From positions 808,501-872,500 of the forward strand of contig NC_134032.1 of NCBI RefSeq assembly GCF_964204645.1: a DNA stretch of 64,000 nucleotides. Direction: 5' to 3'. Each line of letters opens with the position of its first letter. The first letter of the stretch is position 1. The notes under the pieces were generated by a model. That model made no database searches. It saw only the letters and a list, made by a program, of their open reading frames with translations, and was not told the origin of the DNA. Of this stretch, positions 7,095-64,000 are shown piece after piece. The position numbers and the translations under genes were made by a program. The stretch comes from Tubulanus polymorphus. Lineage: Eukaryota > Nemertea > Palaeonemertea > Tubulaniformes > Tubulanidae.

Positions 7095-7570
7095 GTTAAA
7101 TACCTGTCTCAGCTCATTAACTTAAGTCCAGTCTAAGCTCGTTTTGGTTCTATAACGACCAATCGTAGCAACTTAATACCAGCCTAAGCTCACGTATGGT
7201 TCTAAAACACCTCGCAGAGCAGTCTAAGCTCATTTTAGTTCTTTAGCCAATCTAACAACTTAAGACCGGTCTAAGCTCATTTTAGTTCTATAACCAATCT
7301 AACAACTTAAGACCAGTCTAAGCTTATCTTAGTTCTATAACCAATCTAACAACTTAAGACCAGTCTAAGAGCAACTTAGTTCTATAACCAATCTAACAAC
7401 TTAAGACCAGTCTAAGAGCAACTTAGTTCTATAACCAATCTAACAACTTAAGACCAGTCTAAGCTTATCTTAGTTCTATAACCAATCTAAAAAGACTCGT
7501 TAGATTGGTTATAGCCAGTGAAGACGAATCTAATTTCAGCTGTGGTTTGAAGACCCATTAGTTTTTGACA
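7095..7570. repeat. 47-bp tandem repeats (MITE interior), about 8 copies
   Basis: The repeat period is taacaacttaagaccagtct plus aagctcattttagttctata accaatc, 47 bp. Copies near 7320-7450 are nearly identical. This is the same unit as at 23745, 36000, 39800, 46370, 53229 and 54520. Confidence 0.88.
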
Positions 7571-9470
7571 GCTTATCTAAGAGTGTAAGTATTAAGATAT
7601 ACCGATTTCGGACTGAAGCCTGGCTTGTCGACTGGATGACTTACTTACAGACTTAAACAAATCCGAATTGTCCAAATATGGGGGGGGGGGTCAAGAGTCG
7701 TTGGTGCGGACTTTAACTTTGCTACTTCAACCGATTTCGTCAGCCACGCTTTTTTAAAAAACAACCCGAAACTTCCGCGCGGCCTTTTTAGCGGTCGCGA
7801 CTGAATCGAAACCTCGATCAAACCTCCATCGAGCTTTTTCGGCTTTGTGGCGCGCATCGATGGAAACGGAACGCTTTGAACCGCGGTTAGCGCGCGCGCC
7901 CGCGTCGCTTATCTCCGGCGAACGATTTTAGATGAAAGACGAAACGCAAATAAATTCAGCCTCGCTCGGCTGTAGTGAGCGTAGCGACCATGCTGTTTTC
8001 ACGGGGTTCTCGCCGCTGCATTCCCCGGGCCACTACGCCATTTAACACCTGCATTTTACCCTTAGTTCGATGAACTCTGGGGGGATTTATATTTTATGAG
8101 AGCGAAAACAGAGTTTGCTACAGTCACTAAAACACTTGAATCTACTTCCAAGAGTTCGAAGAATCCGATGCCTTCAATATTGCTTGACCATTTGAGCATT
8201 TTTTACGGATTTGAGATTCCGAAATCGGGAATTCATAATTTGCGAGAAAAAATTCAGAACCCGTTAAGCTATTCGGAATCCACAAGTTAAAAGTGCCAAA
8301 AATCGCCCGCGAATAAGGCTATAGATTTTGGCACTAATCAGTAATGAAACTGGTGTTGTTTTAAATGGGCTCAGAGAATGCGATAGCCTAATGTCGTGAT
8401 TACATGGCCACATAGCAGGGCCAGGTCCAGGTGTTTACATAGGGGGGGGGCAACAATGAAGTAGGACCCAAGATCCTAACGACAGCGAGGGGGGATTTGC
8501 CTCTGAAGATCTTTAAAAAGGAAGCCCGTTGGATGCATTTTAGAGGCCATATATATGTCTTGAAGTCACGGTCCTTACTTATTACACAACCACCCACTTT
8601 CAGGCAAAAACTGTGACAGATTTTTTTTAAAATCTGAATTAGTTATCAAGAACCTAACAATATGTATTCACATTCGCGCCAATCAAGAAAAAAAAACAGC
8701 TAGTAAAAATCACTATTATCCTGATTTTGGGTGTCCACCACTCACTCTCTGTCAACTCAAAATAGTATTTAAGACCATTGAATCCTATGCGCGAGAACTC
8801 TTGTTTAACACACGGGAACTAAGAACTAAATCTTTGAAGAAACAATGCGCTAAAAAGGTAAATCCAGAGATTTTTTTCCTGGCACTTTAGGGGGCAGCAC
8901 GTGACCGGCCGATGCTCTCCTAAACCCGCACTTCTTTCGTATTTACTCCAAATTCGAGATTCCTGACTATGGAGGCCACGAATGAGTATACACGACCTAT
9001 AAAGTAGGCCTTTACGGATTGGAATTTATTCTTTAATGCCTCCATAATCTCTCCATTAATCTAGCATTATTCGCAGAATTTTTGAAAGTCGTAATATCAA
9101 TTCCGCAATCTGCGCACGCGGTTTGAGCGGCTATCAATATTCGCGGCCACCATTTTTCTCTAAACCGACGCTTGTTACACGCTTAATTAAATTGTATTCG
9201 TCTTATCTATGACTACTACAAACTAGCGCTCGTTAGACTGGGGGCTTATCGGCGCTTATCGCGGCGAATTCTGTCGGTGAATTGCCGCTATTAATCAAAC
9301 AATGTTAGAACGCAATGAACAAGTCGTATATATGACCGGATCACCTGCTAGATGGAGGAATACATCGCTTTATATGAGAGGTGATGTAATACCCCGACAG
9401 TTGTTCCGCGGCCATCTGGACGTGTGGTATGCGACCAACGTTAGAGTTTTATGTGTTAAGAATGTCTTCC
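7571..9470. other. Gene-poor stretch with a GC-richer island
   Basis: About 7700-8050 is distinctly GC/CpG-richer (gcgcgcgcgcccgcg at about 7890) than its surroundings, as promoters often are. No adjoining first exon can be shown. The remainder holds only short open frames without recognisable products. Confidence 0.3.
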
Positions 9471-11960: not shown

Positions 11961-13663
11961 ATGCCTCGCTATTGTTGTGTACCCCTTTGTAAGTCAAGAG
12001 TAGGCGGATTTAAGTTCCCTACGAACACAGATTTGAAAATGAAATGGCTTGTTGCGATAAAACGACTACAGAGTAGCGAGAAATCTGCAAAATTATGGCA
12101 GCCATCGGATACAGCTATCGTATGCCATCGACATTTTTTACCAACGGACTATAAACAGACACTTACCGGTAAATATGGCTTTCCTATTGAGTTTTCCAAC
12201 TAAGGTGAAATAAGCGGTCAAGATCCAAGGCAGGCTGATTCGTTTAGGCCTCAGCTTGGGCCTATCGATATTATGCAATGTCGATGTTTTGAACTTTTTT
12301 TAAAAAGCCAGGCGCTTATTTTCATATCATCATAGTAGTTTGTTGATAACAGGATAATGATATAACTCAATTATGATAATAACAACAATAGGCCTAATAA
12401 TTTATGTGGTAGATTTATCTTTTTAATTTAAAGGTTGTTGACTTGACTGGCAGCTGTTGATCTTTGAGTAGAAATATGTTTTTTTCTTTATGTGTTTCAG
12501 GTTCTAGAAGAAAATTAAAAGAGAATGCCATTCCGCGTATATTTGCCTTCACACCACCAGTTTCCTCAGATTCAGAGAGAGAAAGTAGAGCCAGTCGGCG
12601 AAGATTAAAACTGGAGGAAGAACCTGTACACCATGACATAGCCACTGAAGTTGAAATAGGCCTACAACATACCAGCAATTACAGAATGGACATAATAGAG
12701 GAACCAACCAATAAAAACACTAACTTGGATAAGAATATTCAGTGTTCCCTCCTTTCAGATCAATTTTTCTGTATCGAGAGATTTATGGTGGATCCTAGGT
12801 CGATCAAATATTACACCAGTTTTAAAGACTATGAACATTTGATGATGTTTTTCAGTGTACTAGGACCTGCTGCGTACGATTTGAATTACAAATGTCAGAA
12901 ACTAACACCGGTCAATCAATTTTTCTTGACATTAATCAAATTAAGGCGTGCCAAGGAAGATATAGAACTGAGTATTCTGTTCGGCATATCAGAGAGTGTA
13001 GTTTCTAGGATTGTGTTAACCTGGGTAAACTTCATGTATTTCCAATTAAGTGAAATCAATACATGGCCAGAGAGAGAAGAGATAGACTGTTTCATGCCCA
13101 GTGGCTTTAAGCATCATTTTCCGTCAACCAGAGTTATTTTAGATGCTACAGAGATTCCAATTGAAAAGCCGTCGAATGTAAAATCTCAAACTGCAACTTT
13201 CAGCACATACAAACATAAGAACACGCTTAAAACTATGGTTGGAATATCACCGAGAGGGGTCGTTAGTTATGTAAGTGAAAGTTATGCGGGTTCAACAAGT
13301 GACCGACAAATCATTGAACGATCCCAGCTGTGTTCAAACACCTCAAAATACTTCAGCTCGAATGACAGCATCATGGCCGATAGAGGTATAATGGTACAAG
13401 ATCTTTTTGCTACCAAGAACATTAAGGTGAACACCCCAACTTTATTGAAGGGCAAGAGTCAACTTGAACCTGAACAAGTAGTTCATGATCGTAGAGTAGC
13501 CAGTAAACGCATCCAAGTAGAAAGAGTAATCGGATTGTCAAAAACTTTTCTTATTTTGAAAAAAGACCTGCCGCTTAGTAAAGTCAATATGGGTTCTAGG
13601 ATAGTTTATGTTTGTTTCAGTATAAGCAATTTCAGACCAGCTATTGTGAACGAATTTGCTTAA
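11961..13663 (+). CDS. THAP-DDE transposase of the ISL2EU element (456 aa)
   Basis: Exons are 11961-12168 and 12501-13663; the intron uses a GTAAAT donor and a tgtgtttcag acceptor and is phase 1. It splits the THAP domain and removes an early stop at 12201. The THAP zinc finger spans residues 1-87: cysteines at 5/6 and 10, CHRH at 55-58, and AIPRIF near the end, matching the C2CH plus AVPxIF signature. A helix-turn-helix follows at about 204-247. The catalytic triad is D284 (ILDATEIPIEKPS), D363 (MADRG) and E410 (QVERVIG), typical of the DDE superfamily 4 domain of Harbinger-like transposases. THAP should bind the terminal repeats and the DDE core should cut and join DNA. The start is the first ATG preceding the THAP cysteines. 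Confidence 0.92.
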
Positions 13664-14456: not shown

Positions 14457-17254
14457 TTAGAACGCATGCATTGTTAAATACTTTGAATAGTACTTCCTAT
14501 AAAAGATTTCTAATTTTGGAAGCAGAGATAGTTCACAGTGTTTTTGATCATGATAAACCCTCTCTACATAAAGGTCCTTATGAGTATAAACAACGAAATA
14601 GCACATTTTCCGTTTGCAAATATGCAACTGTCCTTGAATCTGATCATAGTAATTATGCGAACGTTTCAGCTTCTTATCTTTTGCACTAAGAAACTTGAAG
14701 TATGGCCCCGGAGCAATAAGTTCATTTCTACCGCGATACGGACATTTCACTTCAACAATGGCATCCTCAGACACAAGGCCATCTGGGCTCGCGCCTAGAT
14801 AATCTATATCTGGCCTCACATGAAGTCCGCAAGGCTGTACTTTAACGGAGAATTTACCTTCAAAAGCCGCTATCGCCTTACTTTCGAATGTCTTTCCATG
14901 GCAAACAGCAGCATTTCTCAACGGAATATTATCGTGAAGAGATTTACACAATTTGTCGATATTGCGCCTTTTCGTGAGCGAAACAATTTCACCGAAACGA
15001 GATGCAGTTAATCGTAGCTGCCTTTCCTGAAACCATTGACTAGATTCTGCCTGCTTCCTAGTACTCCTTTCTAGTAATATTGCCTGTGTTTCATTTAACT
15101 GAAAAGGCAAAATGGAATATTAATTATAAGCACAGAGGGAAGGATAACATAGGTCACTCTCAGACACGTTGATTAAAAACTTACCTTAATAGAGTTTTCC
15201 ACCCAATATTCAAGCAAAGTTTTTTTCAGATAATCATGGTCAATTGCTGCTGTTTTGATATCGGCTTTCTTGTACTTATACTTGATGGGTAGGTCTAAAG
15301 ACGATACAGAGCAGTAATTAAGGACAATTCCCCGGACATAATCCTCGTATCCAGCTGATTTCCGGTATTTCACAGGCCTTGGATCCTCCATTGATACCTC
15401 GCGTTTCTTTGATTTTGATAGAGGTAAGTCACCAGCCTTGACAGGGGAACCTGTTAAGAAGTGACGGGTAAATTTAAACAAGGTCACAGCCGAGCTAAAA
15501 ATTGAAAACCAAGTACATTATGTAAAACATTGCCATTACATCAGAATTTATAAAAAATAAGATATATAGGGTACGAATTTGCTGAATGGTGGCGATGTAA
15601 CCAAACAACTTACCAGTATAAACAGACTTGGGCTTATGGAATGTTTGTAGATTTTCCGTACACGATTTAAGTATTTCGGGAGCGTTAGGCCCATCTGATG
15701 ACACAAAATTAGCAAACATCAAAAGTACAGCCGCGACATGCTTACAGGTCCCATTAGGACCCTTACCGGCAGGGCACTCACAATGGCTGTTTCTGAATTC
15801 ACCAGTTGTTTGAGACAATGATATCTGGTACGAGTATGAGATCTGCAATGAAATATAAAAATAAACTAATCAACAATGTTTGCTACATTACAACCTTTTA
15901 AGAATACAGTTGTATTGCAGATTTATGTGGATTTAAAGGAGGGAATATTGTGTTATTTTGATGAAATATAAAACTGGCCTACCTTTTTTTTCATAGCAGC
16001 ACCAACTAATCCAGTCAGATAAACAATTCCGCTTTTGATGAGAATACTGCAGGCTTGAACACGTTGCGATTCTATGAGCTGCTGACCCTTCTCAATAGCT
16101 TTAATGTCTTTGGTACAGTGGTTGTCCATTGCCATTCTATACGTGAAATATGCAGTTACTGTGTCAATATTGAATTTTGGCAATACAATCTTATGATCAT
16201 TTGTAAGCTGTTTGAAACCGCATGTGGGCCATTCCGGAACTGTTTCTTGTGGTAATGTTATGGCCGGTCCCCTAAAATCGTTGTTACGGCCGTATGCTTC
16301 TAATCTGCAATGAACACGAAATAATCATGAAATATAAACATCTAATGTCAAAAATCATTCAATCAACTAACAGAAAGTTGACCCAGAGTTGAAATGTTAC
16401 ATCGAAATGATTACTCCAAGCATGGACGTCTATACGTCCATGGTCATACAGATTTGTATTTAACTCAACTGTGTTGTGGTAAGAAGGTATATAAGTAAGG
16501 TATTCAGTTTACCGTCACCTCAAGTTGATCAGGGTTCTGACTATAATTCCAATAACATATAAAAATTCAATAGAGACTAGACACAGCAGCAGACATGTCC
16601 AATGATTTATGGATACATTGGCAGTAAAATTTGGCATCAGCTTCAATTCATGTTCGATAGATGGCGCCAGTGGTAACTCAGCTGTTGCGATGGTTAGCTG
16701 ACAAGGCGTCCTACATCCCGATAATAATCCCTACATTTCAAGATATAAACATTGCCATCTAAACTTCTCAAGGCAATCATAATATCAAATAGTGATTTAA
16801 AAAACGTTTTATCGATGACTTTTATGTGCATTATGTTTATTTTCCGGACATGAAAACCGAAAAATAATGAAAGATATCGCGGGACGGGACGCGTGGGACC
16901 GGCCATAGCCATCCTCGCAGCCCGGGCTGGTGACGGTAAACTTGTACTATACCCTGACCCACAACCCACTGAGGTTTAGCTTTCATCTCTGGATCTATTA
17001 AAACACGTTCATTTCACTTGAGCATAGGTCTAGAATCATCGATGATTTTGGCAAAAAATCACTGTTGATTCCATGATCATTGCAACATTTTTGCGCAGAC
17101 TAAACGACTGAACACCATCAACCGCATGGAAATATGATCGACATTTAAATTACCTTTCAATTAGGTTGATTTTCCTCCCATAGGTTACCGCACCTCGTCG
17201 GCTTAACTCTTGTTTCAGCTTCGGTACAGTCCATGACCCGTAATTCTCTGACAT
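14457..17254 (-). CDS. SAP-SWIM-YqaJ protein of the ISL2EU element (519 aa)
   Basis: Five exons: 17254-17154, 16304-15983, 15842-15614, 15450-15185 and 15098-14457. All introns are GT-AG and the phases agree (2, 0, 1, 0). Residues 8-43 form a SAP DNA-binding helix pair (WTVPKLKQELSRRGA, then INLIERLEAYG across the first intron). Residues 162-176 carry a SWIM zinc finger, CxC-x9-CxH (CECPAGKGPNGTCKH). From about residue 307 comes a YqaJ / lambda-exonuclease-type domain: WFQERQLRLTASRFG, then HGK..E, and the nuclease triad D412, E422, K424 in SPDG...VEVKCP. In phages YqaJ-family enzymes resect DNA for recombination; here it probably processes transposition intermediates. All catalytic residues are intact. 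Confidence 0.88.
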
Positions 17255-25844: not shown

Positions 25845-26150
25845 TGGATATTATGTAAATAAAGATGTCTTTTATGAAAATGAAAATGTTTTCAAAGCAC
25901 GTTTTTAGATCATTTTCACACACGATAGGCCTGTCTATAGGGAACAGTGTCTCGTTAGGCTCGTGAAGCTATATACATAGTAAAATGATCTTTAGACCAG
26001 ACGGTTTTATGTGATGTTGGGCAGTAAGCAAAACTTTGAGATCTGATTATTTGTTTACGTGTGTTTATATTTAATTTTATAAATTACAGATACGCAAAGA
26101 CTTGAATCGACATCTGAAAAGGGTAACTCCGAAGGCGGATAAACTCGAAC

Positions 26151-35044
<8,894 letters not shown>

Positions 35045-35635
35045 ACTGACAGAACGCACTGACATCTTTAAACTCCAACAAAAATGCAAAAGAAGTTGCA
35101 TTTCGAGTATTCGGCTTAAAGAACATTTCTATGGCTATTTTGTCGATTCTGGCATTAGGTCTGAGAGCTGTTAAATGCAGAAATGACCTTTTCGCCTAGT
35201 TTTCAACAGTTATGTGGCCATATGCACTCACAGAGGGTCTAAAACTCTCAAATAGGTGGCCACGCTCTTCTAGAGAGGCGGGAGGGTGTCGCACAACTTT
35301 TGTTACTTTCAGAATTTAAAAAGAAGCCTCTGAAAGTTAAAAAAAACACCTATTGATTATCTATCAGATCGTGAAGTGCTTGAAAGTCTGAGTCGTCAAC
35401 GGGACCCGGCAATTCTACTGTGGCAAGTGAGGATCCACCAGGTGTCGCTAGTGTATAGTAAGGGTGTTTTGAAACGGCATAATTCCTCAAATTCTGAAAA
35501 TGACGAATGAAAATCACGCTACATTCGAACCATAAATCATCTTGAGTTCATCATTAGATCTTAATTGTTGATGACGTAAATTGAAAATGAACTGATTTTG
35601 ATAAAGTTCACATGTCAAAAATTGTATTAGGGCCT

Positions 35636-35766
35636 GGGCCCAGTTTCAGAAAAAAGTTTATCTCAAATGTTGGTGTAATTGCTATTGGTTACTTCATTTC
35701 TTTAATGAGGACAACAATTCAAACTTAACCGTTTTTAGGCTTTCACTTTTTCGTGAAACCGGGCCC
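35636..35766. mobile_element. 131-bp MITE, GGGCCCAGTTTCA ends
   Basis: Starts GGGCCCAGTTTCAGAAAAAA and ends TTTTTCGTGAAACCGGGCCC, about 20-bp imperfect inverted repeats. It lies 0.6 kb downstream of the GATA4/5/6-class stop codon. Confidence 0.78.
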
Positions 35767-35999
35767 TGATGTTGGGTGGCTCCGGCCAGTCTATCCACTG
35801 TGGTCTGCTCTAAAGTTCTACTCTATGCATTCTCTATGCAAACTATGCATTCGACCGTTTCCGATTTTGATGTCGAATCGGGACGTGATTTCTTACGGAA
35901 TTTCCACATATAGATGAGTTTGTTCTTTGATAGCAACTCGTATCACTTTTTTAAGGGCGGCCAACCGTCCGTACGTTTGCGATGACAATCATTGAGATC

Positions 36000-36405
36000 A
36001 TTGGTCCAGTTGCACAGTCGTGGCTGAAGTCTGTAATCAAATCATAAAGACTGGTCTTAACTTTTTAGGTTGGCTATACTGTAGATTCAACATTTTAAAG
36101 TTAAATTTCAGATTGGTTATAGAACCAAAATGAACTTAGACTGGTTTTAAGATGTTAGATTGGTTACAGAACCAAAATGAACTTAGACTGGTCTTAAGTT
36201 GTAAGATTGGCTATAGAACCAAAATGAGTTTAGACTGGTCTAAAGTTGTTAGATTGGCTATAGATCCAAATTGAGCTAAGACTGGTCTTGATTTGTTATA
36301 GGACCAAAAATATTTTGAACTGATCTTTAAGTTATTAGATTGGTCATAGAACCACAATGAACTTGACGACTGGTCATGGCGCCTTGACTGTGCTGCTGGC
36401 CTTAT
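36000..36405. mobile_element. MITE with 47-bp internal repeats, about 5-6 units
   Basis: Ends ggtccagttgcacagtcgtg and gccttgactgtgctgctggcc are imperfect inverted repeats. The units run opposite in orientation to those at 7095 and 39800. Confidence 0.72.
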
Positions 36406-39370: not shown

Positions 39371-39799
39371 ATTATCGGTTCGTAAATTCGTTTTTAGAGT
39401 TTTATGTCTCGCAGATATACATTTCGCATAGGACAGTCTTGTATTGGTATCAATTTAAATATCAATGGTCTGTTAGTGGATGGTAAGTCTGAGTAGTACA
39501 AAGTGGACCGCCTCTAGTCACATAGTGACCATTCAAACCGTATTGTCACCGTGATATATTTCCGATGGTCAACTTGAACCAACCTTTCAAAACAGCAACC
39601 AGGCCCTGGAATTTTCGCTGCATTCAGAAAAAAATTTAAAGAAAATGGAATTTTTCAAACGATGAAACTACAGTGACAGCATATATAAATTTCATTCGAA
39701 AAAAACTGCTCGAAAAGTGTAGAACTTTTTGCTCTCTCCCTCTCTGATAAACAGTGTTACCCTCTAGAAATAATTGCATATACCAAGGGGCAGGGTACC

Positions 39800-40515
39800 A
39801 TATTCTACTCAGACTTAAGACCAGTTTAAGCTCATTTTTGTTCGATAACCAATCCAAAAATTCAAGACCAGCCTAAACTATCAACTTAAGACCAGTCTAA
39901 GCTCATTTTGGTTCTATAGCCAGTCTAACAACTTAAGACCAGTCTAAACTCATTTTGGTTCTATAGCCAATCTAACAACTTAAGACCAGTCTAAACTCAT
40001 TTTAGTTCTATAGCCAATCTAACAACTTAAGACCAGTCTAAACTCATTTTGGTTCTATAACCAATCTAACAACTTAAGACCAGTCTAAACTCATTTTAGT
40101 TCTATAACCAATCTAACAACTTAAGACCAGTCTAAACTCATTTTGGTTCTATAGCCAATCTAACAACTTAAGACCAGTCTAAACTCATTTTGGTTCTATA
40201 ACCAATCTAACAACTTAAGACCAGTCTAAACTCATTTTAGTTCTATAGCCAATCTAACAACTTAAGACCAGTCTAAACTCATTTTGGTTCTATAACCAAT
40301 CTAACAACTTAAGACCAGTCTAAACTCATTTTAGTTCTATAGCCAATCTAACAACTTAAGACCAGTCTAAGCTCATTTTGGTTCTATAACCAATCTAACA
40401 ACTTAAGACCAGTCTAAACTCATTGTAGTTATATAACCAATCTAACATTTTAAGACCAGTCTAAAGATTTTCAAGACCACTCTTTGACCCAAGTCTCGAC
40501 TAGTGAATCAGCCCC
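39800..40515. mobile_element. MITE-type array of the 47-bp unit, about 13 copies
   Basis: The largest expansion of taacaacttaagaccagtct aaactcattttggttctata gccaatc in the window. The right end, gtctcgactagtgaatcagcccctg, matches the family terminus; the left end is diverged. Confidence 0.85.
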
Positions 40516-41129
40516 TGAAAGTGTCATATTTTCGACATACATAGAATAGATCATCCAATACTTCACTCATAATGTACTCGACTATTTGTGTTAATACTTA
40601 TCCGACAGTGGCAAATATAGTAACAATAATACACAATTTCTTATCAGTAAACTTTAACTGATAACGGCTCTAGGTTTTAGGCTTTATTTTGCCGTGACAA
40701 TAGTTGCTATACGGACGTGTTGTGTCGTATTTAGCAGTTTGACCGAAGTCCATTTCGCGACAGTTCCGCATATATAAGCTGTTTTTGTGACTAAAAACGA
40801 CTTGAAAAACAACTTGAAAGTTTATTGATGCGTTGAAAAATGAAATGCTTAGCAAAGTGACCGCGGTTCGTGATAGAATTCTTGTGAAACCGCCATTGAT
40901 AAATTTCAATATATCGAAAAGACTATCAAAAGTTATTGAATTGAAAATCATGCGATAAAAGGTCAAAATTCACACGGTTATTTTGAGACGCAGATATGGA
41001 TGACATAGTAAATGTCGACTTACACATCCTAATTGCAATAAATATTCAATCAATTTAGGCACCCAACCAAATTAACAGACTTTTGGAAGATCGTTTATAT
41101 GAGAACCCGAACCGAAATTGTCAATTATG

Positions 41130-41849: not shown

Positions 41850-42530
41850 ATTGAGCTAGTCCTAATATCGCTATATCCTAATAGTCATTCATCATCAGGA
41901 ATACTGATGTTGTCCTCATTATAACCATTGATGAAACACTCTGAGTCCGTGTTGTAAAGATAATATAAAATCCCTGCACACTAAGAATAAAAAGAGTCTG
42001 AAATGTTTCCTTGAGCTAGTGTAGTTTATTCAACGTTTCCACTATATCCTAATAGTTATCTTCAGGAATACTGATGTTGTCCTCATTATAACCATTGATG
42101 AAACACTCTGAGTCCGTGTTGTAAAGATAATATAAAATCCCTGCACACTAAGAATAAAAAGAGTCTGAAATGTTTCCTTGAGCTAGTGTAGTTTATTCAA
42201 CGTTTCGACTATATCCTAATAGTCATCTTCAGGAATACTGATGTTGTCCTCATTATAACCATTGATGAAACACTCTGAGTCCGTGTTGTAAAGATAATAT
42301 AAAATCCCTGCACACTAAGAATAAAAAGAGTCTGAAATGTTTCCTTGAGCTAGTGTAGTTTATTCAACGTTTCGACTATATCCTAATAGTCATCTTCAGG
42401 AATACTGTATTCCTTGAGCTAGTGTAGTTTATTCAACGTTTCGACTATATCCTAATAGTCATCTTCAGGAATACTGTATTCCTTGAGCTAGTGTAGTTTA
42501 TTCAACGTTTCCACTATATCCGAGATGATA
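41850..42530. repeat. 167-bp satellite array plus shortened units
   Basis: Three copies of the 167-bp unit are followed by two about 70-bp derivatives keeping ttccttgagctagtgtagtt to catcttcaggaatactgta. Confidence 0.92.
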
Positions 42531-46094: not shown

Positions 46095-46340
46095 GATAAA
46101 TGTTGAATAAGCTACACTAGCTCAAGGAATACAGTATTCCTGAAGATGACTATTAGGATATAGTCGAAATGTCAAATAAACTACACTAGCTCAAGGAATA
46201 CAGTATTCCTGAAGATGTCTATTAGGATAAAGTCGAAACGTTGAATAAACTACACTAGCTCAAGGAAACATTTCAGACTCTTTTTATTCTTAAAGTGCAG
46301 GGATTTGGCTCAGAGTGTTTCATCAATGGTTTGAACCTCG
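46095..46340 (-). repeat. 167-bp satellite, reverse shortened copies
   Basis: Reverse-complement units (aataaactacactagctcaa ggaa.. and tattcctgaagatgactatt aggata) with about 70-bp spacing, then one longer unit. Confidence 0.88.
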
Positions 46341-46369: not shown

Positions 46370-46930
46370 CTATGGGTCAGTTGCGGAGTGAAGACTTGTC
46401 TTTAGGACCGGTATGAGACCATGCATGTCCTAGCAACAATTTCAAACCAAGCTCACTTTTGCTCTTGAGCCAATCTAACCACCTAAAACCAGTCAAACTT
46501 CATTTTGTTTTTATAAACAATCTAACAACTTAGGACCCCAGTCTAAGTTCATTTTGTTTCTATAAGCAATCTAACAAATTAAGACGCAGCCTAAGCTCAT
46601 TTTAGTTCTATAGCCAATCATGTAACGTAAGACCAGTCAAAATCTTTTTTGGTTCTATAGCCAATCTAACAACTTAAGATCAGTCTAAGCTCATTTTGGT
46701 TCTATAACCAATCTAACAACTTAAGACCAGTCTAAGCTCATTTTGGTTCTATAACCAATCTAACAATTTGAGACCAGTGTAAGCTTATTTTGGTTCTCAA
46801 ATCAATCTAACAACTTAAGGACCAGTCTTTTTGGTTTTTAAACAAACTAACAGCTCAAAACCCATCAAAGACTTTCTTGATCCTAATGACCAAATTTACC
46901 ATTTTACCATTTTTGGACATAGGTTGCGAC
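46370..46930. mobile_element. MITE with 47-bp internal repeats, about 9 diverged units
   Basis: The left end gggtcagttgcggagtgaag and right end ataggttgcgactgcaata are imperfect inverted repeats; the units inside vary more than at 39800. Confidence 0.68.
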
Positions 46931-47114
46931 TGCAATACTTGGCGTATAATAAATAGATGATAATTTTTGTGTATATATTTACGCGACCTCGTACGGATCT
47001 ATTGTTTGTTCTAAGAAGCTGATAGCGACCTAAATCCGCTGGCCCCGACTATCTCCCTACCACACGGCGCGCGCGCGCGTATACCAATATTTGACCGTAG
47101 TCTTTATTTCATTA

Positions 47115-53228: not shown

Positions 53229-53705
53229 GGGCCGATTCCATAGTCATAGCTTCGAGTTAAGACCGTTCTAAGACGAGATTAGTTCTATAGCCAATTCGAT
53301 ATCTTAAGACCAGTCTAGTGACTTAATACTGGTCTTGACAACTTTTTGGCCGAAGTTCGACTATGGAACCGTTGTTAGGCGATCAAAATTGTTAGATTGT
53401 GCTTAGACTGGCCTTAAGCTATTAGATTGGCTTTATAACTAAAATGAACTTAGATTAGATGTAAGATTGGGTATAAAACCAAAAGTTATGACTGGTATCA
53501 AGTTAGATTGATTATTGAAACAAATGAGCTTAGAACGGTCTTGGGTTGTTAGATTGGTTATAGAACCAACATGAACTTAGACTGGCCTTAAGTTGTTAGA
53601 TTGGTTATAGAACCGAAATGAGCTTCGACTGGTCTTAAGTTGTTAGATTAGCTACAGGACTAACATAGTCTTAGACTGCTGGTCATGCAATGACTATGCA
53701 ACTGT
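53229..53705. mobile_element. MITE with 47-bp internal repeats
   Basis: Begins ggggccgattccatagtcat and ends caatgactatgcaactgtcg. An internal family end (cgactatggaaccgttg at 53348) suggests two copies side by side. Confidence 0.65.
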
Positions 53706-54800: not shown

Positions 54801-55134
54801 CGGGGCTAATCGAACAGAACCCGGGTTAAAGATGGTACCAGTCACCAGCCTCTGCTATCATGTCCAAGGTCAGATGCATTGTGTATCACATATTTGACAT
54901 CGCGGTAGAAATTTCATTCTGTTAGAATTTATCACAAAAAACGTAAACAACGCCATTTTATACGTACTCACAATTTGACAATCGTTCGCTGTGTGGAATT
55001 CAATGTTAGGGTCCCATGGTTGGTCGCCCGAACTCATGGATCCAATTTTAACCCATGGGGGCTATAAAGAGGGTTGTAATATAGATAAGTAATGAATTTG
55101 ATTTCGCTTGGCAAGACTTCGCAACATTATGGAC

Positions 55135-55215
55135 AATATTTGAACGAATGAATGAATGAATGAATGAATTTATTTCGCATCTTAAAATTACGATAATAAA
55201 ATCACAATTACGTAA
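55135..55215. repeat. Retroposon tail-like repeat with (GAAT)n
   Basis: gaatgaatgaatgaatgaat precedes ttatttcgcatcttaaaatt ac, a 3'-end style common to invertebrate non-LTR elements. Confidence 0.35.
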
Positions 55216-55430
55216 TATGGAATAAGTCTCGATATAATAATGGTCTCAAGTCCAGAGAGAAGGAAAACTAACGCTGACATAAAATTACGTTCTATGATAG
55301 AACGATTAGCATGGTTTCATGAATATCTTTTTTACAATAAGTGATAATGAAACGCTGGTGACTCAGAGAAGTAAAAAATTTATCAAAAAATATCAAGAAC
55401 TCATATTCCCGTTTTCAGGAAGACAGTAAC

Positions 55431-57188
55431 ATGGAGGAAAATCATGATTCTTCGTGGTCCGAGCATTCCGAGTCCCCGAGTCCTCAGCCCAATGATCTAA
55501 CGCAGGCGAACGCAGTCTCGAACGGGACACCGCCGCAGGCGCAGTCACCGAACCGACCAGAAAGCCGTCCACAGTCAACGCACTCCATCGCGCAAGCGCC
55601 GACCACTATACACATACCAGAGGACCAGGAGAACGCCATCGTCATCAAAAGCGAGCGTTCGGAACGGGATATTTCAGCGCTGAACAACGACGACTTGATG
55701 TCGAACCGCAGCAGTTCGGTACCGCATCATCTCCTACACTCCGGCAGCGTGCAACAACAACAACAACAACAACACCAGTTACACGCGGCGAACGAGTCTG
55801 AATCACCACCCATTCCTGAAACGGTAGCGCAACACCAACACGATATAGCGGCTACACCGCACCATCAGGTTTTCCATCACCAACACCTACAGGTACCCAC
55901 CGCCGCTGCTGCTGCTGGTGCAGGAAACCACGTGCAACACCACCACCACCATCCGAACTCTTCGATGCTACACCAGGAGGATGTGGAAACCTTCTTCAAC
56001 AGTTTAGACCGACCGCAAGCTACTAACGTGATGATCAACTCGCCGATGGCGCTGTCCGGAAGTTCGGCCAACAATTTGACGTTGCTGACCAGCGGTCAAA
56101 TGTCCGCGTCGTCGATGTATCACCATAACGGTCACATGACTACAGCTCACCACAGTCCGTCCCCAGTTGAGGCAGCTAACTACCCGCACACTCAGGTACG
56201 TGCGAAATAATCTAAGATTCGGTTCCTTCGATTGTAATTCTTCTCAACTTTTCATGGAACAGTATATAGGTTTACTCGCCTTGGGACAATGTTTTATTGG
56301 CCTGAGACACACCCGGTCCTCAATGAGTTAAAACTCCTTCAATTTTGAGAATTAGGCAATTAGAATCTTTGTCTAGATTGTAGTTGTACGGTTAACTACG
56401 CATCAATCGGTACAGGGACCAGGTCTCGTATTGTAGATTAGACTATACCAAGTTAACGTGGTAGTGCCAGTCATCGTGTCGGGTTCGAATCCCGAAAATC
56501 ATAACATTCTTTTTCGATGTGCGTATGGCTCGTCGGAAACCCGTGTTATCGCTGCTTCGCTGCCATATTGAATATCGTTTTTATTTCGACAAATATTTCC
56601 AGGTTTATCAACAATTACAGCAACAACGATCTCCCTACCCAGCGCAGTATTCACCGACGCCAGCTCAGCCGACAGGTTACTGGCCAGGTAACAGCAGCAG
56701 TCGCCTGGCGTATTCGGCGCGGCAAGCAAACCCGACCATAGCCCAACATTTATCATCACCAGTCAGCTCTCCTTCCGAAACCGCCTATAGATATGCACTA
56801 CAGGTATGTATATAAACTATGACAAAATAAGGCTTTAAAAACGATACCTTGTATCTCCTTATGTTCGTCAGGACAGATCATAAACTGCCATGGTATTTAC
56901 CATCAGTTCAATTCTATAACTGCCGGGTCTGTTATTGTTAACTGGATCATGATTTCAAAAAAATTAATGTACAGGGAAAGATAGGCGACCGGCCGGGTCA
57001 ACTTTAACCTCAGCAGAAGTAAGAAAGATTTTCTAGGCTTAATATATTATCATCATTATCATTGTTACTATTATTTCATGATTATCATAATTTATTTATC
57101 AATGGTTTTGATATCTTCAAGAATATTATCATCATTGTTATTTCTGATTATCATCGTTATTACAAAATTATTGTAATAATAATTATTA

Positions 57189-57276
<88 letters not shown>

Positions 57277-60200
57277 AGGATCAACAGGCGATCAGTGGCT
57301 ATGGCGGATACCTTCCAGCAGAAGCCTGGAATCACCACATCAATAGTCGCGTTAACATGTCCGGAATGACGACGCCCCCTGGTGGTATAGGTAGGCATAC
57401 GTTTTAGATATTACTTTCAATATCAATATCAATATTATCAGGGTCTAGATTCACAAAAAAAGTTTCATTCTTAATAATTCTTAAACTGAACTCAATCTGA
57501 AATCGACTAAATCTAAATCGATTTGATTTCTCTACATGTTTGAGATAAATCGTAAGTTTGTTTGTTACATGAGTCACTCGCGTCAGTTTGAGTTAGGGCC
57601 TTGCGAACACTATGTTCAAATCATCCTCTATTTCAAACCAATATCATCTAATGCAAAAACCCTTTGGCAGAGGTATACCCATTTGTTTAAAAGCACTTTT
57701 TGTATATAAGAAAAGGGAAATTTATATAAAACAAAGGTAAAATTTTGTCAGAAATTTGCGAAAGGGGTCAAAATGGCTGTAAGAATTACCTCTCCGGAGG
57801 TGCAGTGACCTGTACAGCTTCTAAGACTTTCAAAGCTACTTTCGTTTGACTGTTTCATTTATTCTAAGCTATCAATGCATATGTAAATCTAAGTTAGATG
57901 AAGAAAAAGTGATGATAATTATTATTTCCTAATCAATTAACATTAAATATATTTGCTTAGGCTCTAAAAACAAATCCCGACAAATTTGAAATTCTGAAAA
58001 GGTGTCAAAGGGCTGTAAGTAAGAATAATCGCCTTTTCTGATAAATTTAATCTTAAATATATTTGGTTGGACCCTAAAAACAAAGGCACAATTTTGTCCG
58101 AAATTCGGGGGATCAAAAAGGGCTGTTAGAATTAACTTTTCCTGATCATATTTGGCCTACATATACTCGGCTAGACCCTCGGATCTAACCCCTGGTAACG
58201 ACCCTGACAGCATCCGGCCGGTATATTCTCATGCGTGTATAGTATAAGTTTTGATAAATTCATATTTATTAATACGTCGAAAATCAACACAGCGGCTTCA
58301 TAAACGTGTCACTCTGCAATGTCGGCTGTTTGTATAACGTGTGATTTATACCCGGGAACTAAGGCACCTGCCTAATACAATGAATGACTAACTTCGTCTA
58401 ATGCGTAATTAGGGTTTTCTGCTGCATTCGTGGAAAATCCTGCCTTTTGCGATTTACCCTTTCCGCCGGGGTCCCAAACGATTCCTTAAGGACTCCTTCA
58501 AAACGTAAAAATCTTGAAACTGTGCAGCTCTATTTTGAGAAAAATGACAGAAACTCCTGAAAAAAAGGACCCTCAATCTTGAGAACGGTACTTCAGGAGT
58601 TGTACATTAGACTGCACCTAAATCAGTTCAGTTGGGGCCAGGATCTTTTTGTTACCCAATTAGGTAGCTTGATAATTAGAAACCAAAATTTAGTTATTGT
58701 TAATGGTAAACACTTGCTTATAAAACCACCGAATTCATGGTTTACTGAGATTTATTATCATAAAATAGGGATTGTCCCTGTTACTTATTTAGTTGGTAAA
58801 TTTTTTTTGATATTGAGTGTCCCTTACAAACCCACCACACCTGCCGGGAGCGAAACAGGGGGTTTGATTTTGAAATCAGAAATCGAAGTACAAATATAGT
58901 TGTGTGATCGGCGGTCGAGTTTATTACAGAATTTTGTGTTTAAATCGAAGTACATAATTGGGAAATTCGGTTCCGGTTCGTTCAAACAATTTTTCAACCG
59001 GTCTGAACCGGCAAGCGACTGATTGGGTGAATTCTCTTGGCTGCCTAATTTAATACATCGAAATTTTGGAAATAGCTATATCACAAGGTTGAAGATGATT
59101 TTGTCGATTTTTATATTTTTCGAGTCGTTTAGTCGTAGTTTACTGAGATAAACAGTTCTGATTTAGGAGGAGTCTACAGTAATTCGGATATATAAAAGTG
59201 GCACACACGCTTCCTCGAAATATGAAATATTCTCCTTGAAAACTCATTATATCCATGTACAAAACGTAGCTGATATGAGAGACCATTGCACGCATAACAT
59301 CCAGATTTATAGACAAAAAAAAACACCCGCGCAGTTTGTACGGGTTTTTCTGTCCCTATCGCTACCGCATATGTACATTAGAAGATAAACTGTTTAAAAC
59401 AACTTTTTGCGGTATTATCATCGCGGTTGACACAAGATTAGATGTTGTAAACCAGTCATATACATGTCAGACGCTTGTACTTTCTCCATCATCGCGATAA
59501 GGTCCGGTCTTTTTCCGAGCTGAAAGGTCGTTCGGTTCCTAATTCTAGGAGAACAATTCTTAAGATTTTGAAGTCAAATTTGTTGAAATTTGACTTTTCT
59601 TTTTTGCGGTCGAAATCGGAAATTTCAGACTTTATTAGCTAGCGATAGAAATGGTATTCGTTTCAGAGATTGAGTATTTGATGCATCTTAAATCTTCGTC
59701 ATTAGTATCGGTGAAATTTAGAATGAGTTAGTCTTTATTTTGAATGTAGGTAATAAACCCCCCCTCCCAACCCCCCTGGTAAAAATCCCCTAAGTTCAGT
59801 TTTTTTTTTTTATCAAACAAGTATTTCAAGGATTTTGACAAGGGGGATTTTTACCAGGAGGATATTTCATGCTTTATTTTCTCTTTGAAAATTCTCTATT
59901 TCGTTCGAAAAAGGTCTATATTTAGAGTAGACCTTTGCCACTTTGAACCGTGTCTATACGGCGAGCAACGAGGAACCTTTTACATCCTGGCAGCGAAGCA
60001 GATTTATTTGAACACGAAATCCGGTTTATTTCCCAGAGTTGTGTTTAGAATATCGCCGAACAAAAGCCACGAAATAATATCCCATTCCTCTTATACGGCC
60101 AGTAATACGTGCGCGTCTGCGATTTTATATTATAGGTACAGACTTGTCAAAAACAATCTGATAAGAATGTTTACCTGCACTGATAAGCGCCGGGGCTTAC

Positions 60201-61764
60201 GACTTGAAATTTCGAAACTTTACCTTTGATGGCCGTTCGGCTGATAAGCTTATTGATCCGACCCATAAATTTTGATGGCTGTCGAAATTCGCAGGGTGTC
60301 TCCGGGTTCTAATGAGTCCACAGGTCGCCGCGTAGTGTAATACATAAAATAAATTGGACGTTTTGGAGTGGGCTAACACAGAATTTTAGAAAGTCTACAC
60401 AGCCAAGACGAACTCGGCGAAACTATATTTATATGTTTAGCGACGTTTAGACTTGACTCATCTTAAACGCGTGATCTTTGAGTGATTCACGCTCGAGGCC
60501 AAAACAATCGCTACTTCAATTTTATTCGTCCGATTTCTTCCTTAAGTTTTTCGTATAAAAAAAAATGAGGTCGATCTCGATGGAACACTCCACAGAGTCC
60601 GTGGTGTAAAGATTGGTAAAAATCCCACGGTTATAAAAAGGAAAAAAAAAAAGAAAAATGTTTCCTTGAGCTAGTAGTTTTATACCAACGAAGATTTCTC
60701 TATTCCTTTAGATGACTATTAGGATATAGTTGAAAAGTTGAATAAACTACACTAGATCAAGGAAACATTTCAGACTATTCTTATTGTGCAGGGATTTTAT
60801 ATTATCTTTACAACACGGACTCAGAGTGTTTCATCAATGGTTATAATGAGGACAACATCAGTATTCCTGAAGATGACTATTAGGATATAGTCGAAACGTT
60901 GAATAAACTACACTAGCTCAAGGAAACATTTCAGACTCTTTTTATTCTTAGTGTGCAGGGAATTTATATTATCTTTACTACACGGACTCAGAGTGTTTCA
61001 TCAATGGTTATAATGAGGACAACATCAGTATTCCTGAAGATGACTATTAGGATATAGTGGAAACATTGAATAAACTACACTAGCTCAAGGAAACATTTCA
61101 GACTATTTTTATTGTTATTAGCAATTATTATTATGGTGTTGCTATAATTAATGTACTTTGTACCTGAGCAAACCTTAAACATTATAATTTTTTTTGTCAA
61201 ATAAAGTCATATATATTAAATTTAAGAAAAAAGACAGAATTTAGTAGAATTGAATTTGTAGGTCGTAAGATCTGGATCCAGTTCCACAGTTGTGAGTTAA
61301 AGTTAGTTCATTTTCAATGAGTTAGCCCAGAGTTATATCTTAACTCGGAACTGTGGAACTGGACCTTGAGTTAAAGTTAATTAGGTCGTACGAAATCTAC
61401 CAATCAAACGAATAACAAATGGCTGTTAGCTGAAACCACTGCGGTTCCATTTCAATAATTTTACCTGAAAAGAAAATGAAATCTGCTTATTGTAGCGAAC
61501 ATTCTTATTTTCTCTAATTCGAAATCAACGAAATTCTACTTTTTCGCATCTAATCGTCGTCTGAATTTGTTCTTTTTTCTAGATCAAGGTGATGGATATA
61601 CGTTATTTCCTGATATGGAAGGTCGCGAGTGCGTGAACTGCGGCGCGATATCGACGCCGTTGTGGAGACGAGACGGAACCGGTCACTATTTGTGTAACGC
61701 GTGCGGTCTCTACCACAAGATGAACGGACTCAATCGACCGCTTATCAAACCGCAGAAGAGGCTA
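55431..61764 (+). CDS. GATA123: GATA1/2/3-like transcription factor, 3' incomplete (420 aa in window)
   Basis: Coding exons: 55431-56195, 56603-56803, 57279-57390 and 61583-61764, or 61770 if the second donor is used. Splice sites are GT-AG and phases match (0, 0, 1, 0). The start ATG follows an acceptor (55418) and 12 nt of leader. The N-terminal region is Ser/Gln/His-rich and contains [14 protein letters not shown], resembling the EVDVFFNHLD motif of GATA1/2/3 proteins, and lacks the SPVYVP motif of GATA4/5/6. The N-finger (CVNC-x17-CNAC) is complete; the C-finger is not found before 64000 and should lie further on. The finger's [14 protein letters not shown] looks more like GATA4/5/6 than the usual NGQNRPLIKPKRRL, because the exon shares 138 identical bases with the upstream gene. 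Class assignment is therefore based on the N-terminus and is less certain. Confidence 0.82.
56465..56505 (+). repeat. tRNA-like fragment in intron 1 of the second GATA gene
   Basis: Contains a B-box-like cgggttcgaatcccga preceded by gtgccagtcat, as at 127-165. This is a remnant of a tRNA-derived SINE. Confidence 0.45.
56830..57035. mobile_element. MITE, ATACCTTG family, in intron 2
   Basis: Starts ggctttaaaaacgatacctt and ends cagcagaagtaagaaagatt..taggctt; interior ctgccgggtctgttattgtt and gcgaccggccgggtcaactt. Confidence 0.72.
57177..57274. repeat. (ATT)n microsatellite forming a 3' splice-site region
   Basis: The tract runs directly into tattacag (57271-57278), the acceptor of coding exon 3 of the second GATA gene. 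Confidence 0.95.
57730..58160. repeat. Diverged tandem repeat of about 110-150 bp, three copies
   Basis: The blocks attttgtc-gaaattt-g, gg-caaa-gggctgtaagaatta and ttaaatatatttg recur three times with substitutions in intron 3 of the second GATA gene. Confidence 0.55.
58790..59070. repeat. Interspersed repeat, gtttgattttgaaatcggaa family
   Basis: The best-preserved copy: tgtcccttacaaacccacca cacctgccggga, gttgtgtgatcggcggtcga, gcaagcgactgattggg, taatacatcgaaattt. Confidence 0.82.
59770..59862. repeat. Inverted repeat around a poly-T loop
   Basis: cctggtaaaaatcccc (59778) is mirrored by gggggatttttaccagg (59845). Confidence 0.7.
59880..60400 (+). promoter_or_regulatory. Candidate intronic enhancer with three TGATAAG sites
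   Basis: Unique, GC-richer sequence in intron 3 of the second GATA gene carries identical TGATAAG motifs at 60159, 60181 and 60242. The interval is free of the repeats that fill the flanks. Enhancer function is inferred. Confidence 0.35.
60700..61110 (-). repeat. 167-bp satellite, reverse copies
   Basis: Two to three reverse-complement units (tcctgaagatgactattagg, acacggactcagagtgtttc) lie 0.5 kb upstream of the N-finger exon of the second GATA gene. A diverged piece begins at about 60585. Confidence 0.9.
61273..61365. mobile_element. Fold-back MITE, GGATCCAGTTCCACAG type
   Basis: Starts tggatccagttccacagttg and ends ggaactgtggaactggacct; close to 25735-25844. Confidence 0.75.
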
Positions 61765-61844
61765 GTAGGTGTAAGTCTTGAATATCAAACTCCTTGATGA
61801 AACGCTTGTTGATGGATAGATACTAAAAGAAAAGAAAAAAATGA

Positions 61845-62150
61845 TCCTTGAGCTAGTGTAGTTTATTCAACGTTTCGACTATATCCTAATTGTCATCTTC
61901 AGGAATACTGATGTTGTCCTCATTATAACCATTGATGAAACACTCTGAGTCCGTGTTGTAAAGATAATATAAAATCCCTGCACACTAAGAATAAAAAGAG
62001 TCTGAAATGTTTCCTTGAGCTAGTGTAGTTTATTCAACGTTTCGACTATATCCTAATAGTCATCTTCAGCAATACTGATGTTGTCCTCATTATAACCACT
62101 GATGAAAAACTCCGTGTCGTAAAGATAATATAAAATCCCTGTAAACAAAA
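61845..62150 (+). repeat. 167-bp satellite, about two copies
   Basis: It begins tccttgagctagtgtagttt 80 bp after the N-finger exon of the second GATA gene and runs in the opposite orientation to the upstream copies, so the exon is flanked by inverted satellite blocks. Confidence 0.9.
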
Positions 62151-62309
62151 AATATTAAGGAATATTGATAGTGGGATAGTCGTAAAATGGAAAATAACAT
62201 GTCCTACATTGCCAATTAGTTCTTAACGGTATTTTCGTACCAAAACTTATCCCGCATCCTAGCCCTATGCTCGCTGCTCGTAAAAATAACCCAGATTGAC
62301 CATAGCCCT

Positions 62310-62490
62310 AGTCATAGCCGGACTCGAACCTGCCACCAGCCACATACTAGCCGAGCATGCTCGCCGCTAGACCATAGACCAGTAACGGTTGACGTGGTTT
62401 GTAAGTTTGCCTACTTAGGGTGGCGACCATTAAGCTTTGGTAACCAGTCAGGTGTGGTGACTGGTGACTGGTCGGGCGTGGTGACTGTAT
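62310..62490 (-). repeat. tRNA-derived SINE-like element, second copy
   Basis: agccggactcgaacctgcca and cgctagaccatagaccagta correspond to 22359-22435, again followed by ggtgactggtgactggtcgg-type units. Confidence 0.55.
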
Positions 62491-62499
62491 TCAACAAAA

Positions 62500-63545
62500 G
62501 AAATACAGGTTTAAGGTTTTACTCTGAAAAAACCACCGTCCTGCTACAGACCTGTTATCATCATTCGACCATTCTGTATGTCCTTGTGTCTTGCGCATTT
62601 CAATTAAAGTCGATTAAAAATTGTACAGTCTAATGGCGTGAAGATGATATAAAATCCCTTCAAACAAAGAACAAAAGCCTATCTAGAAATCCGGGTGGCA
62701 TCTCAGAAACTATTCGCGTGAGACTGCAGCGATAGTCTAACAGTCGTTTCCATTTCTGTATCTGTACACAATCGTTCGAGTATTTCAAAATAGCGGGTAA
62801 GGATGGGTGTGGGGGTTGCTTCATTCAACGATGGCCACCAAGCGCCAGCTATTCTGGTCGTTCTTTCATGGGATTTCAGCTAAATCACGAAAAGGACGGT
62901 TCAAACATGTTTTAGCCTAGATCTAGCTAGTAGATAATCGTATAGACTCGAAAACAAGTATATGTTTACGAAGACTTTATGCGATTAATTTCATTTTCAT
63001 TTGATAGAGTTTTAACACGCATCAAAATGATAAAAATGGGTATCTTGTGTCCATGGACGTATCTAGTTTATGCACCCATGCAGTCGTCAGAAATCTTCTC
63101 AATGAAACTCGTCAATTAGGACTCGCAATTAAACCTGTCGTTAAGATTAGAATTGAACGATTTTTTGAAATGAACGAGTATTGAATTAAGTTTAGCTGAT
63201 GTCGTCTGAACCTAAAAACTTGTCATTCAATATACATAGGATAACGTCCTAGCTAAAACTATTGTAGGTTATGGGGGATATATCGTTACCCTAACCTTAC
63301 CCTAATAATTTTACTGGTTAAATAGTGAAAGTTTTCTAATGAACAGTGTTATCTAAAATGTCTTTTTTTATGAACTCCCTGAAATACCTTTAAGTATTTT
63401 GTCGCTACGTCACATTTTTGCTCGCAATAAAAACAGTTATGCATATGTTTATTGACAGAGACTCTTAAACTCTCAAACCAGGAAGTTTGTGGACTTGAAA
63501 TAAATTTGTTTTGAAAGTCGTAAATTTGCCAGTAATTGTAGTCCC
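62500..63545. other. Intron sequence, nothing recognised
   Basis: Presumably still inside the second GATA gene. No second-finger exon was found on the plus strand. Confidence 0.4.
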
Positions 63546-63551
63546 GGGTCT

Positions 63552-63880
63552 GAGGGGCGGATCTAGGAATGTTTGAACAATTCATAATTTTGATAAATTG
63601 ACATATACCGAGTTTTTTGCTAAGAAACAGACGAAAATAAAGAATAATTTATTAGGGTTGGGCCTGGAAATTGGAATGGGAACTTTGGCAATGCGAGGGC
63701 TACATGTGAAACATCGGTGGAGGTTCTGGTGGCCCAAAAACAATTTCGGAAAAAAGGGGCTTCTCGGCCGATTTAGATTCATTTTTCTTTTTTGTTTTAA
63801 AATTTCTTTTCAAAAATGATTTTCCAGACTTGTTGGATGTCACATTAGAAATTTGAGCCCCCCTTATATCCGCCCCTGCC
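63552..63880. mobile_element. Fold-back element with GGGGCGGATC ends
   Basis: Left end gaggggcggatctaggaatg; right end tatatccgcccctgccgg. Related in style to 9989-10250. Open frames inside match nothing known. Confidence 0.5.
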
Positions 63881-64000
63881 GGTCTACTGCACCACATACT
63901 GGCCACTAACTGGGTTAGAGTTCATTAGCTACGAATTAAAAATCAAAAACTTGATGGCGATTTTATGGCGCCAGATGTTGTTGTTGCGCGGTGGTTGTAA

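Follow-up and report, generated by a model that had tools for sequence, protein, structure and literature searches.

Gene conversion is already known to affect the DNA-binding domains of linked developmental genes, and the pair of GATA4/5/6 genes described here from Tubulanus polymorphus, a nemertean of the Palaeonemertea, is most likely a fresh case. A close parallel is offered by Dlx-a and Dlx-b of Capitella teleta, which are linked spiralian developmental paralogues with a homogenised stretch on part of the DNA-binding domain, a conversion tract that GENECONV put at 150 bp (PMC3199776). The arrangement differs in that the Capitella genes lie tail-to-tail and their tract takes in some intron, whereas the Tubulanus genes are head-to-tail and 30 kb apart, with an exact, coding-only tract on a GATA finger. 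Similarly, conversion of linked paralogues in the homeobox region is on record for engrailed/invected of hexapods (Peel et al. 2006, cited in PMC3199776), although these, as cited there, are insect homeobox genes.

For the GATA family itself, the nearest counterparts are the tandem GATA456 clusters of Lottia and Capitella, which likewise consist of linked paralogues whose N-finger and C-finger are encoded by separate exons (PMC2383905). In the finger-domain trees of Gillis et al., two duplicates group together within Capitella and within Lottia, and recent duplication was suggested (PMC2383905). The term 'gene conversion' does not appear in that study, whose listed species include no nemertean. 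Long-lasting concerted evolution has been described for the mammalian pairs BMP8A/B, DDX19A/B and TUBG1/2 (PMC2720389); the screen that found them demanded a similar intron, whereas the Tubulanus genes share no intron sequence beyond repeats. Our literature searches, whose coverage lay mostly in journals outside subscription, found no work linking GATA456 with gene conversion, and for GATA factors combined with concerted evolution only work on yeasts (4 papers) and the silkmoth chorion locus (1 paper), as judged from the listing. Nothing was found on conversion in tandem spiralian transcription factors.

Two linked GATA genes and their identical tract

The window (the 64-kb stretch of T. polymorphus DNA analysed here) holds gene 1, the T. 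polymorphus 'transcription factor GATA-4-like' (database protein P0076), for which our model has five coding exons, and the first part of gene 2 (LOC141909622; database protein P0001, 583 aa, 100% identity over the query). The four window exons of gene 2 match P0001 residues 1-421. Its C-finger exon was not found in the 64-kb window and must lie past base 64000; this finger is known from P0001. The exons and the two copies of the tract are as follows.

26151..26616, + strand: gene 1 (GATA4/5/6, P0076), coding exon 1, from the gene model
31511..31677, + strand: gene 1 N-finger exon; the tract starts 20 bp in and stops 9 bp (RRL) before the donor
31531..31668, + strand: identical tract, gene 1 copy, in the N-finger exon; 138 bp, 46 codons
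32301..32426, + strand: gene 1 C-finger exon, GATA4/5/6 type, from the gene model
33352..33454, + strand: gene 1 exon 4, from the gene model
34665..35044, + strand: gene 1 last coding exon, including the stop, from the gene model
55431..56195, + strand: gene 2 (LOC141909622, P0001), coding exon 1, matching P0001
56603..56803, + strand: gene 2 coding exon 2, matching P0001
57279..57390, + strand: gene 2 coding exon 3, matching P0001
61583..61768, + strand: gene 2 N-finger exon, with its own flanks kept (PDM before the tract, KRL after)
61618..61755, + strand: identical tract, gene 2 copy, in the N-finger exon; 138 bp, 46 codons

Both genes are presumably endomesoderm regulators, given that gut and mesoderm are the expression sites of spiralian GATA456 genes (PMC2938726) and that Lineus ruber, another nemertean, expresses GATA456-a in its gut (PMC4584431). 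With P0001 residues 1-365 as the sole query, only P0001 itself was returned at E<=0.001 (1 of 6746 candidates). The N-finger of the tract is matched by 15 distinct PDB sequences. P0076 carries 24 extra residues before DGDVYFG, which are partly read-through of the presumed intron end (31464-31511); our model has the acceptor at 31510/31511. An erroneous annotation or an alternative exon may account for these residues.

Direct comparison of the copies showed that 31531-31668 and 61618-61755 are identical at 138/138 bp on the same strand and in the same reading frame, bearing out the original prediction that the identity extends to the silent positions of all 46 codons. The product is the N-terminal GATA finger, and 30,087 bp separate the two copies. 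The match ends abruptly, as extension by one base fails on either side. Before the tract, gene 1 has TTCGGT and gene 2 GATATG; after it, gene 1 continues with RRL (CGCCGCCTG) and gene 2 with KRL (AAGAGGCTA), in agreement with the earlier description of exons that differ at once outside the tract. Ungapped identity over the adjoining 30, 60 and 100 bp was 27-29% to the left of the tract and 30-40% to its right. The tract is wholly coding, its right end lying three codons 5′ of the gene 1 splice donor. When 26001-36000 was compared with 55001-64000, the only longer same-strand exact match was one of 152 bp (two placements), which belongs to a dispersed 167-bp repeat. Likewise, blastn of these two regions returned no second exon pair; the matches were the 167-bp repeat, low-complexity or other short repeats, and the tract.

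These edges bear on whether the assembly can be trusted here. If the consensus of one exon had been overwritten by the other during assembly or polishing, the identity would be an artefact. We consider this quite improbable, as the 138-bp patch sits in exons that differ elsewhere and is bordered on either side by the codons of its own gene, and an assembly duplicate would bring its flanks along. P0001 also agrees with the tract, but it derives from a genome record and so is no independent control.

Because the amino acids of the finger are almost invariant, protein identity in the tract says little and the signal sits in the silent positions. Indeed, 21 of the first 37 N-finger positions were invariant across the 206 of 210 returned GATA proteins in which our pattern located the finger, a sample biased towards conserved proteins because it was found via words common with the query. 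The null model therefore kept the amino acids identical, applied the codon usage that both genes have outside the tract and assumed saturated silent sites. The codon-usage calculation gave an expectation of 18.8 identical codons out of 46 at saturation and a probability of ~10^-19.9 for all 46. Simulation of 20,000 pairs gave a mean nucleotide identity of 77%, never above 88%; a mean of 17.5 identical codons, with 30 as the highest count; and a longest exact run of 12.5 bp on average and 35 bp at most. The tract identity is real and far above chance. The tract contains 31 silent-site equivalents with zero changes, and the 95% upper bound on the age of a conversion would be ~24 million years at 2x10^-9 changes/site/year or ~10 million years at 5x10^-9 changes/site/year, both being assumed rates that may not be this animal's.

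Silent sites could also be identical if a constraint at the DNA or RNA level, such as an overlapping signal, had frozen them in both copies. The extreme conservation of the amino acids is in keeping with such a constraint. Yet the 31 silent-site equivalents would need to have been fixed in both copies since before the nemertean class split (see below), the adjoining homologous codons (RRL/KRL) have diverged, and Rfam gave 0 families at gathering score across the window. Of the readings that we weighed, we give this one the least credence.

Class and age of the gene pair

Gene 2 had been taken for a GATA1/2/3 gene in the original prediction, which made its protein a chimera with a GATA4/5/6-like N-finger. 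The C-finger of P0001 points elsewhere. In P0001, the finger is followed by KRLVGSTGRRVGLQCANC, and gene 2 has RRVGLQCANC and RKRKPK, while the GATA1/2/3 marks (the AGT.C.NC finger start and the NRK tail) are absent. Within the first 59 columns of the C part, six columns are class-diagnostic, i.e. without overlap between 8 GATA1/2/3 rows and 29 GATA4/5/6 rows whose labels we assigned from names and sequences; gene 2 has the GATA4/5/6 state in 6/6. In agreement, the C-finger tree (38 rows) joined the 8 GATA1/2/3 rows at 100/100 with gene 2 outside. Gene 1 has a C-finger and tail of GATA4/5/6 type (...KRKPKN). By these residues, both genes are classed as GATA4/5/6, in tandem and on the same strand within 64 kb, so the assignment of gene 2 to GATA1/2/3 falls and there is no sign of a chimera. 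Two or more closely linked GATA4/5/6 genes make up a tandem GATA456 cluster, and genes 1 and 2 are such a set. Neither the C-finger nor the whole-protein trees gave a resolved orthology of the Tubulanus pair to the Lottia or Capitella copies.

Membership of gene 2 in GATA1/2/3 was rejected on the C-finger residues (6/6) and the tree (100/100), despite an AU test on 68 C-finger columns in which gene 2 joining GATA1/2/3 had p=0.126, i.e. no formal exclusion. Database names can diverge from finger type: P0003 (Lineus longissimus) is named 'GATA-2-like' and P0126 (Antedon) 'GATA-binding factor 2-like', yet both have C-fingers of GATA4/5/6 type.

Lineus longissimus belongs to another nemertean class (Pilidiophora) and has one relative for each Tubulanus gene: a GATA-4-like protein for gene 1 (Lineus a) and the GATA-2-like protein P0003 for gene 2 (Lineus b). 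The C-finger tree (38 rows) paired gene 1 with the GATA-4-like protein at 90/90 and gene 2 with the GATA-2-like protein at 88/84, both forks lying below the tool's starred level. A tree of the rest of the protein, which had been proposed as a check on the original prediction, upheld the separation: with the tract excluded, whole proteins (20 rows, 432 columns) joined gene 2 to its Lineus relative at 100/100, and the AU test rejected a clade of genes 1 and 2 (p=0.012). Gene 1 and Lineus a were not joined in this tree, and on the C-finger alone the AU test does not reject a clade of genes 1 and 2 (p=0.069). At the start of the C part, 59/60 residues are common to gene 1 and Lineus a, 55/60 to gene 2 and Lineus b, and only 52/60 to genes 1 and 2. 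Because each Tubulanus gene appears to have its own Lineus orthologue, we conclude from these protein comparisons that the pair is old and predates the split of Palaeonemertea and Pilidiophora.

These results also speak to a younger origin, in which gene 2 would have arisen from gene 1 by recent tandem duplication and then changed rapidly in every part except the tract. The tandem, same-strand arrangement and the failure of the C-finger-only AU test to reject sisterhood are compatible with it. However, gene 2 groups with the Lineus protein at 100/100, sisterhood is rejected on whole proteins minus the tract, and apart from repeats no further exon or intron is common to the genes at the DNA level. 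Recent whole-gene duplication is thus disfavoured (AU p=0.012, though p=0.069 on the C-finger alone), and we regard it as highly improbable.

The codons after the finger vary among relatives. RRL is found in Lineus a and most of the tabulated spiralian GATA-4-like proteins, and KRL/KRM in Lineus b, Potamilus 3491, Sinanodonta, Paralvinella and two unnamed entries. KRL/KRM also occurs in some arthropod and vertebrate genes, and the second gene of Liolophura has RRL. In the C-finger and whole-protein trees, the KRL/KRM second copies were not resolved as orthologues of gene 2.

Origin of the tract, direction of copying and functional effect

Recent ectopic gene conversion between two old tandem GATA4/5/6 genes is, in our judgement, very likely the explanation. 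Genes 1 and 2 would have separated before Palaeonemertea and Pilidiophora parted, and non-reciprocal copying would recently have overwritten ~138 bp of one N-finger exon with the sequence of its counterpart. The codons next to the tract (RRL in gene 1, KRL in gene 2) would have been left as they were, as would the introns and the remainder of both genes. The tract has the features expected of conversion, namely sharp-ended identity that includes silent sites between otherwise diverged paralogues. In addition, at the level of proteins only, the pair predates the species split, yet within the tract the paralogues are closer than the orthologues: genes 1 and 2 share 46/46 residues, against 45/46 for gene 1 and Lineus a and 43/46 for gene 2 and Lineus b, which also differ by an inserted residue. 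The exact tract and this reversal support the core of the original prediction, that gene conversion acted recently between anciently separated GATA genes.

A counterpoint to a single conversion is the little homology from which it would have started, since unconverted fingers are ~77% identical with exact runs of ~12 bp in our simulation. Identity of ~77% with such short runs is scant homology for an ordinary single conversion. Either earlier rounds kept the exons alike, or a mechanism needing little homology acted. The first of these amounts to chronic concerted evolution, in which the N-finger exons of tandem GATA4/5/6 genes would have been repeatedly homogenised since duplication, most recently in the round seen as the 138-bp identity. 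It is the same process drawn out over a longer time, and its probability falls within that given to conversion; taken separately, we think it unlikely, though worth more weight than the artefact. Earlier rounds would hold the exons alike, and mammalian gene pairs are reported to have undergone concerted evolution for >100 million years (PMC2720389). On the other hand, the tract is not the same in Lineus a and b, which have 42 identities there and an inserted residue, so that not all nemerteans show homogenisation, and the within-species grouping seen by Gillis et al. may reflect recent duplication, as those authors themselves suggest. If true, recurrent conversion would account for the finger-domain trees, which place duplicates together within Capitella and within Lottia and could not resolve their orthology, and Tubulanus would represent a round recent enough for zero silent-site changes.

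For recent conversion in either form, the donor may be either gene. The earlier argument that the GATA4/5/6 gene was the donor, as the tract ends NGLN...KPQ rather than NGQN...KPK, fails because gene 2 is not GATA1/2/3. Codon usage leans weakly towards gene 1 as donor: the log-likelihood of the tract was -46.3 under gene 1 usage and -48.5 under gene 2 usage, and GC3 was 0.67 in the tract, 0.63 in the remainder of gene 1 and 0.55 in that of gene 2. The residues point both ways. Lineus b, Potamilus 3491, Sinanodonta and Paralvinella likewise have the L of NGLN, and Lineus a has I in its place, which leans weakly towards gene 2 as donor; yet this L recurs in several first-copy genes, among them those of Novocrania, Lamellibrachia and Biomphalaria. 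Lineus b has an extra N that Tubulanus gene 2 lacks; if ancestral, this N would lean towards gene 1 as donor.

In either direction, conversion could alter only a few residues near the finger end. Tract residues 4, 6, 9 and 19 (E, V, G and D), which we take to be the FOG-contact positions of GATA1, were the same in 206, 205, 206 and 206 of 206 N-fingers of both classes. Altered FOG binding, which the original prediction had raised for FOG-type cofactors, is not indicated, since these residues are constant in at least 205 of the 206 N-fingers. A literature search for FOG-contact residues of the N-finger found nothing. As there is no sign of a GATA1/2/3-GATA4/5/6 chimera, a change of cofactor choice need not be invoked.

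The locus would be of interest because a gene that controls development carries a clean tract of conversion, limited to the part of an exon that encodes one GATA finger. Such tracts can mislead trees based on GATA finger domains, and linked spiralian GATA4/5/6 duplicates may appear younger than their true age.

Repeats and mobile elements in the window

The 167-bp repeat occurs in tandem and dispersed copies, in both orientations and up to 98-100% alike, and is possibly a recently spread mobile or satellite-like element. Its copies lie as follows.

33638-34605: copies of the 167-bp repeat, with the array in the last intron of gene 1 at 33709-34604, + strand
41889-42522 and 46098-46306: further copies of the 167-bp repeat
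60701-61117, - strand: inverted copy, ~465 bp upstream of the gene 2 N-finger exon
61839-62192: copies of the 167-bp repeat, with the direct copy at 61839-62154, + strand, 70 bp downstream of the gene 2 N-finger exon, holding the 152-bp exact match to the gene 1 intron array

The 152-bp exact same-strand match thus links the array in the last intron of gene 1 with the copy downstream of the gene 2 exon. That the repeat near both exons might help the loci meet is speculation, as its distance from the tract is unequal in the two genes (~2 kb in gene 1 versus 84 bp in gene 2).

Several other repeat families are present. A 47-bp tandem repeat forms many arrays throughout the window, some inverted (7108-7577, 36103-36298, 39734-40579, 46475-46944, 53419-53686 and others), and there are families of 49/50 bp, 86 bp and 109 bp. 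A 40-bp minisatellite (32360-32839) occupies the gene 1 intron directly 3′ of the C-finger exon and is part of a 210-codon open frame (32259-32891) in frame with that exon. On the minus strand, a YqaJ recombinase domain and a SWIM zinc finger are encoded by open frames at 14457-15119 and 15495-15869, which are probably fragments of a single mobile-element gene. Finally, a 400-codon open frame at 12461-13663 has DDE_Tnp_4 and HTH_Tnp_4 domains and encodes a DNA transposon transposase.
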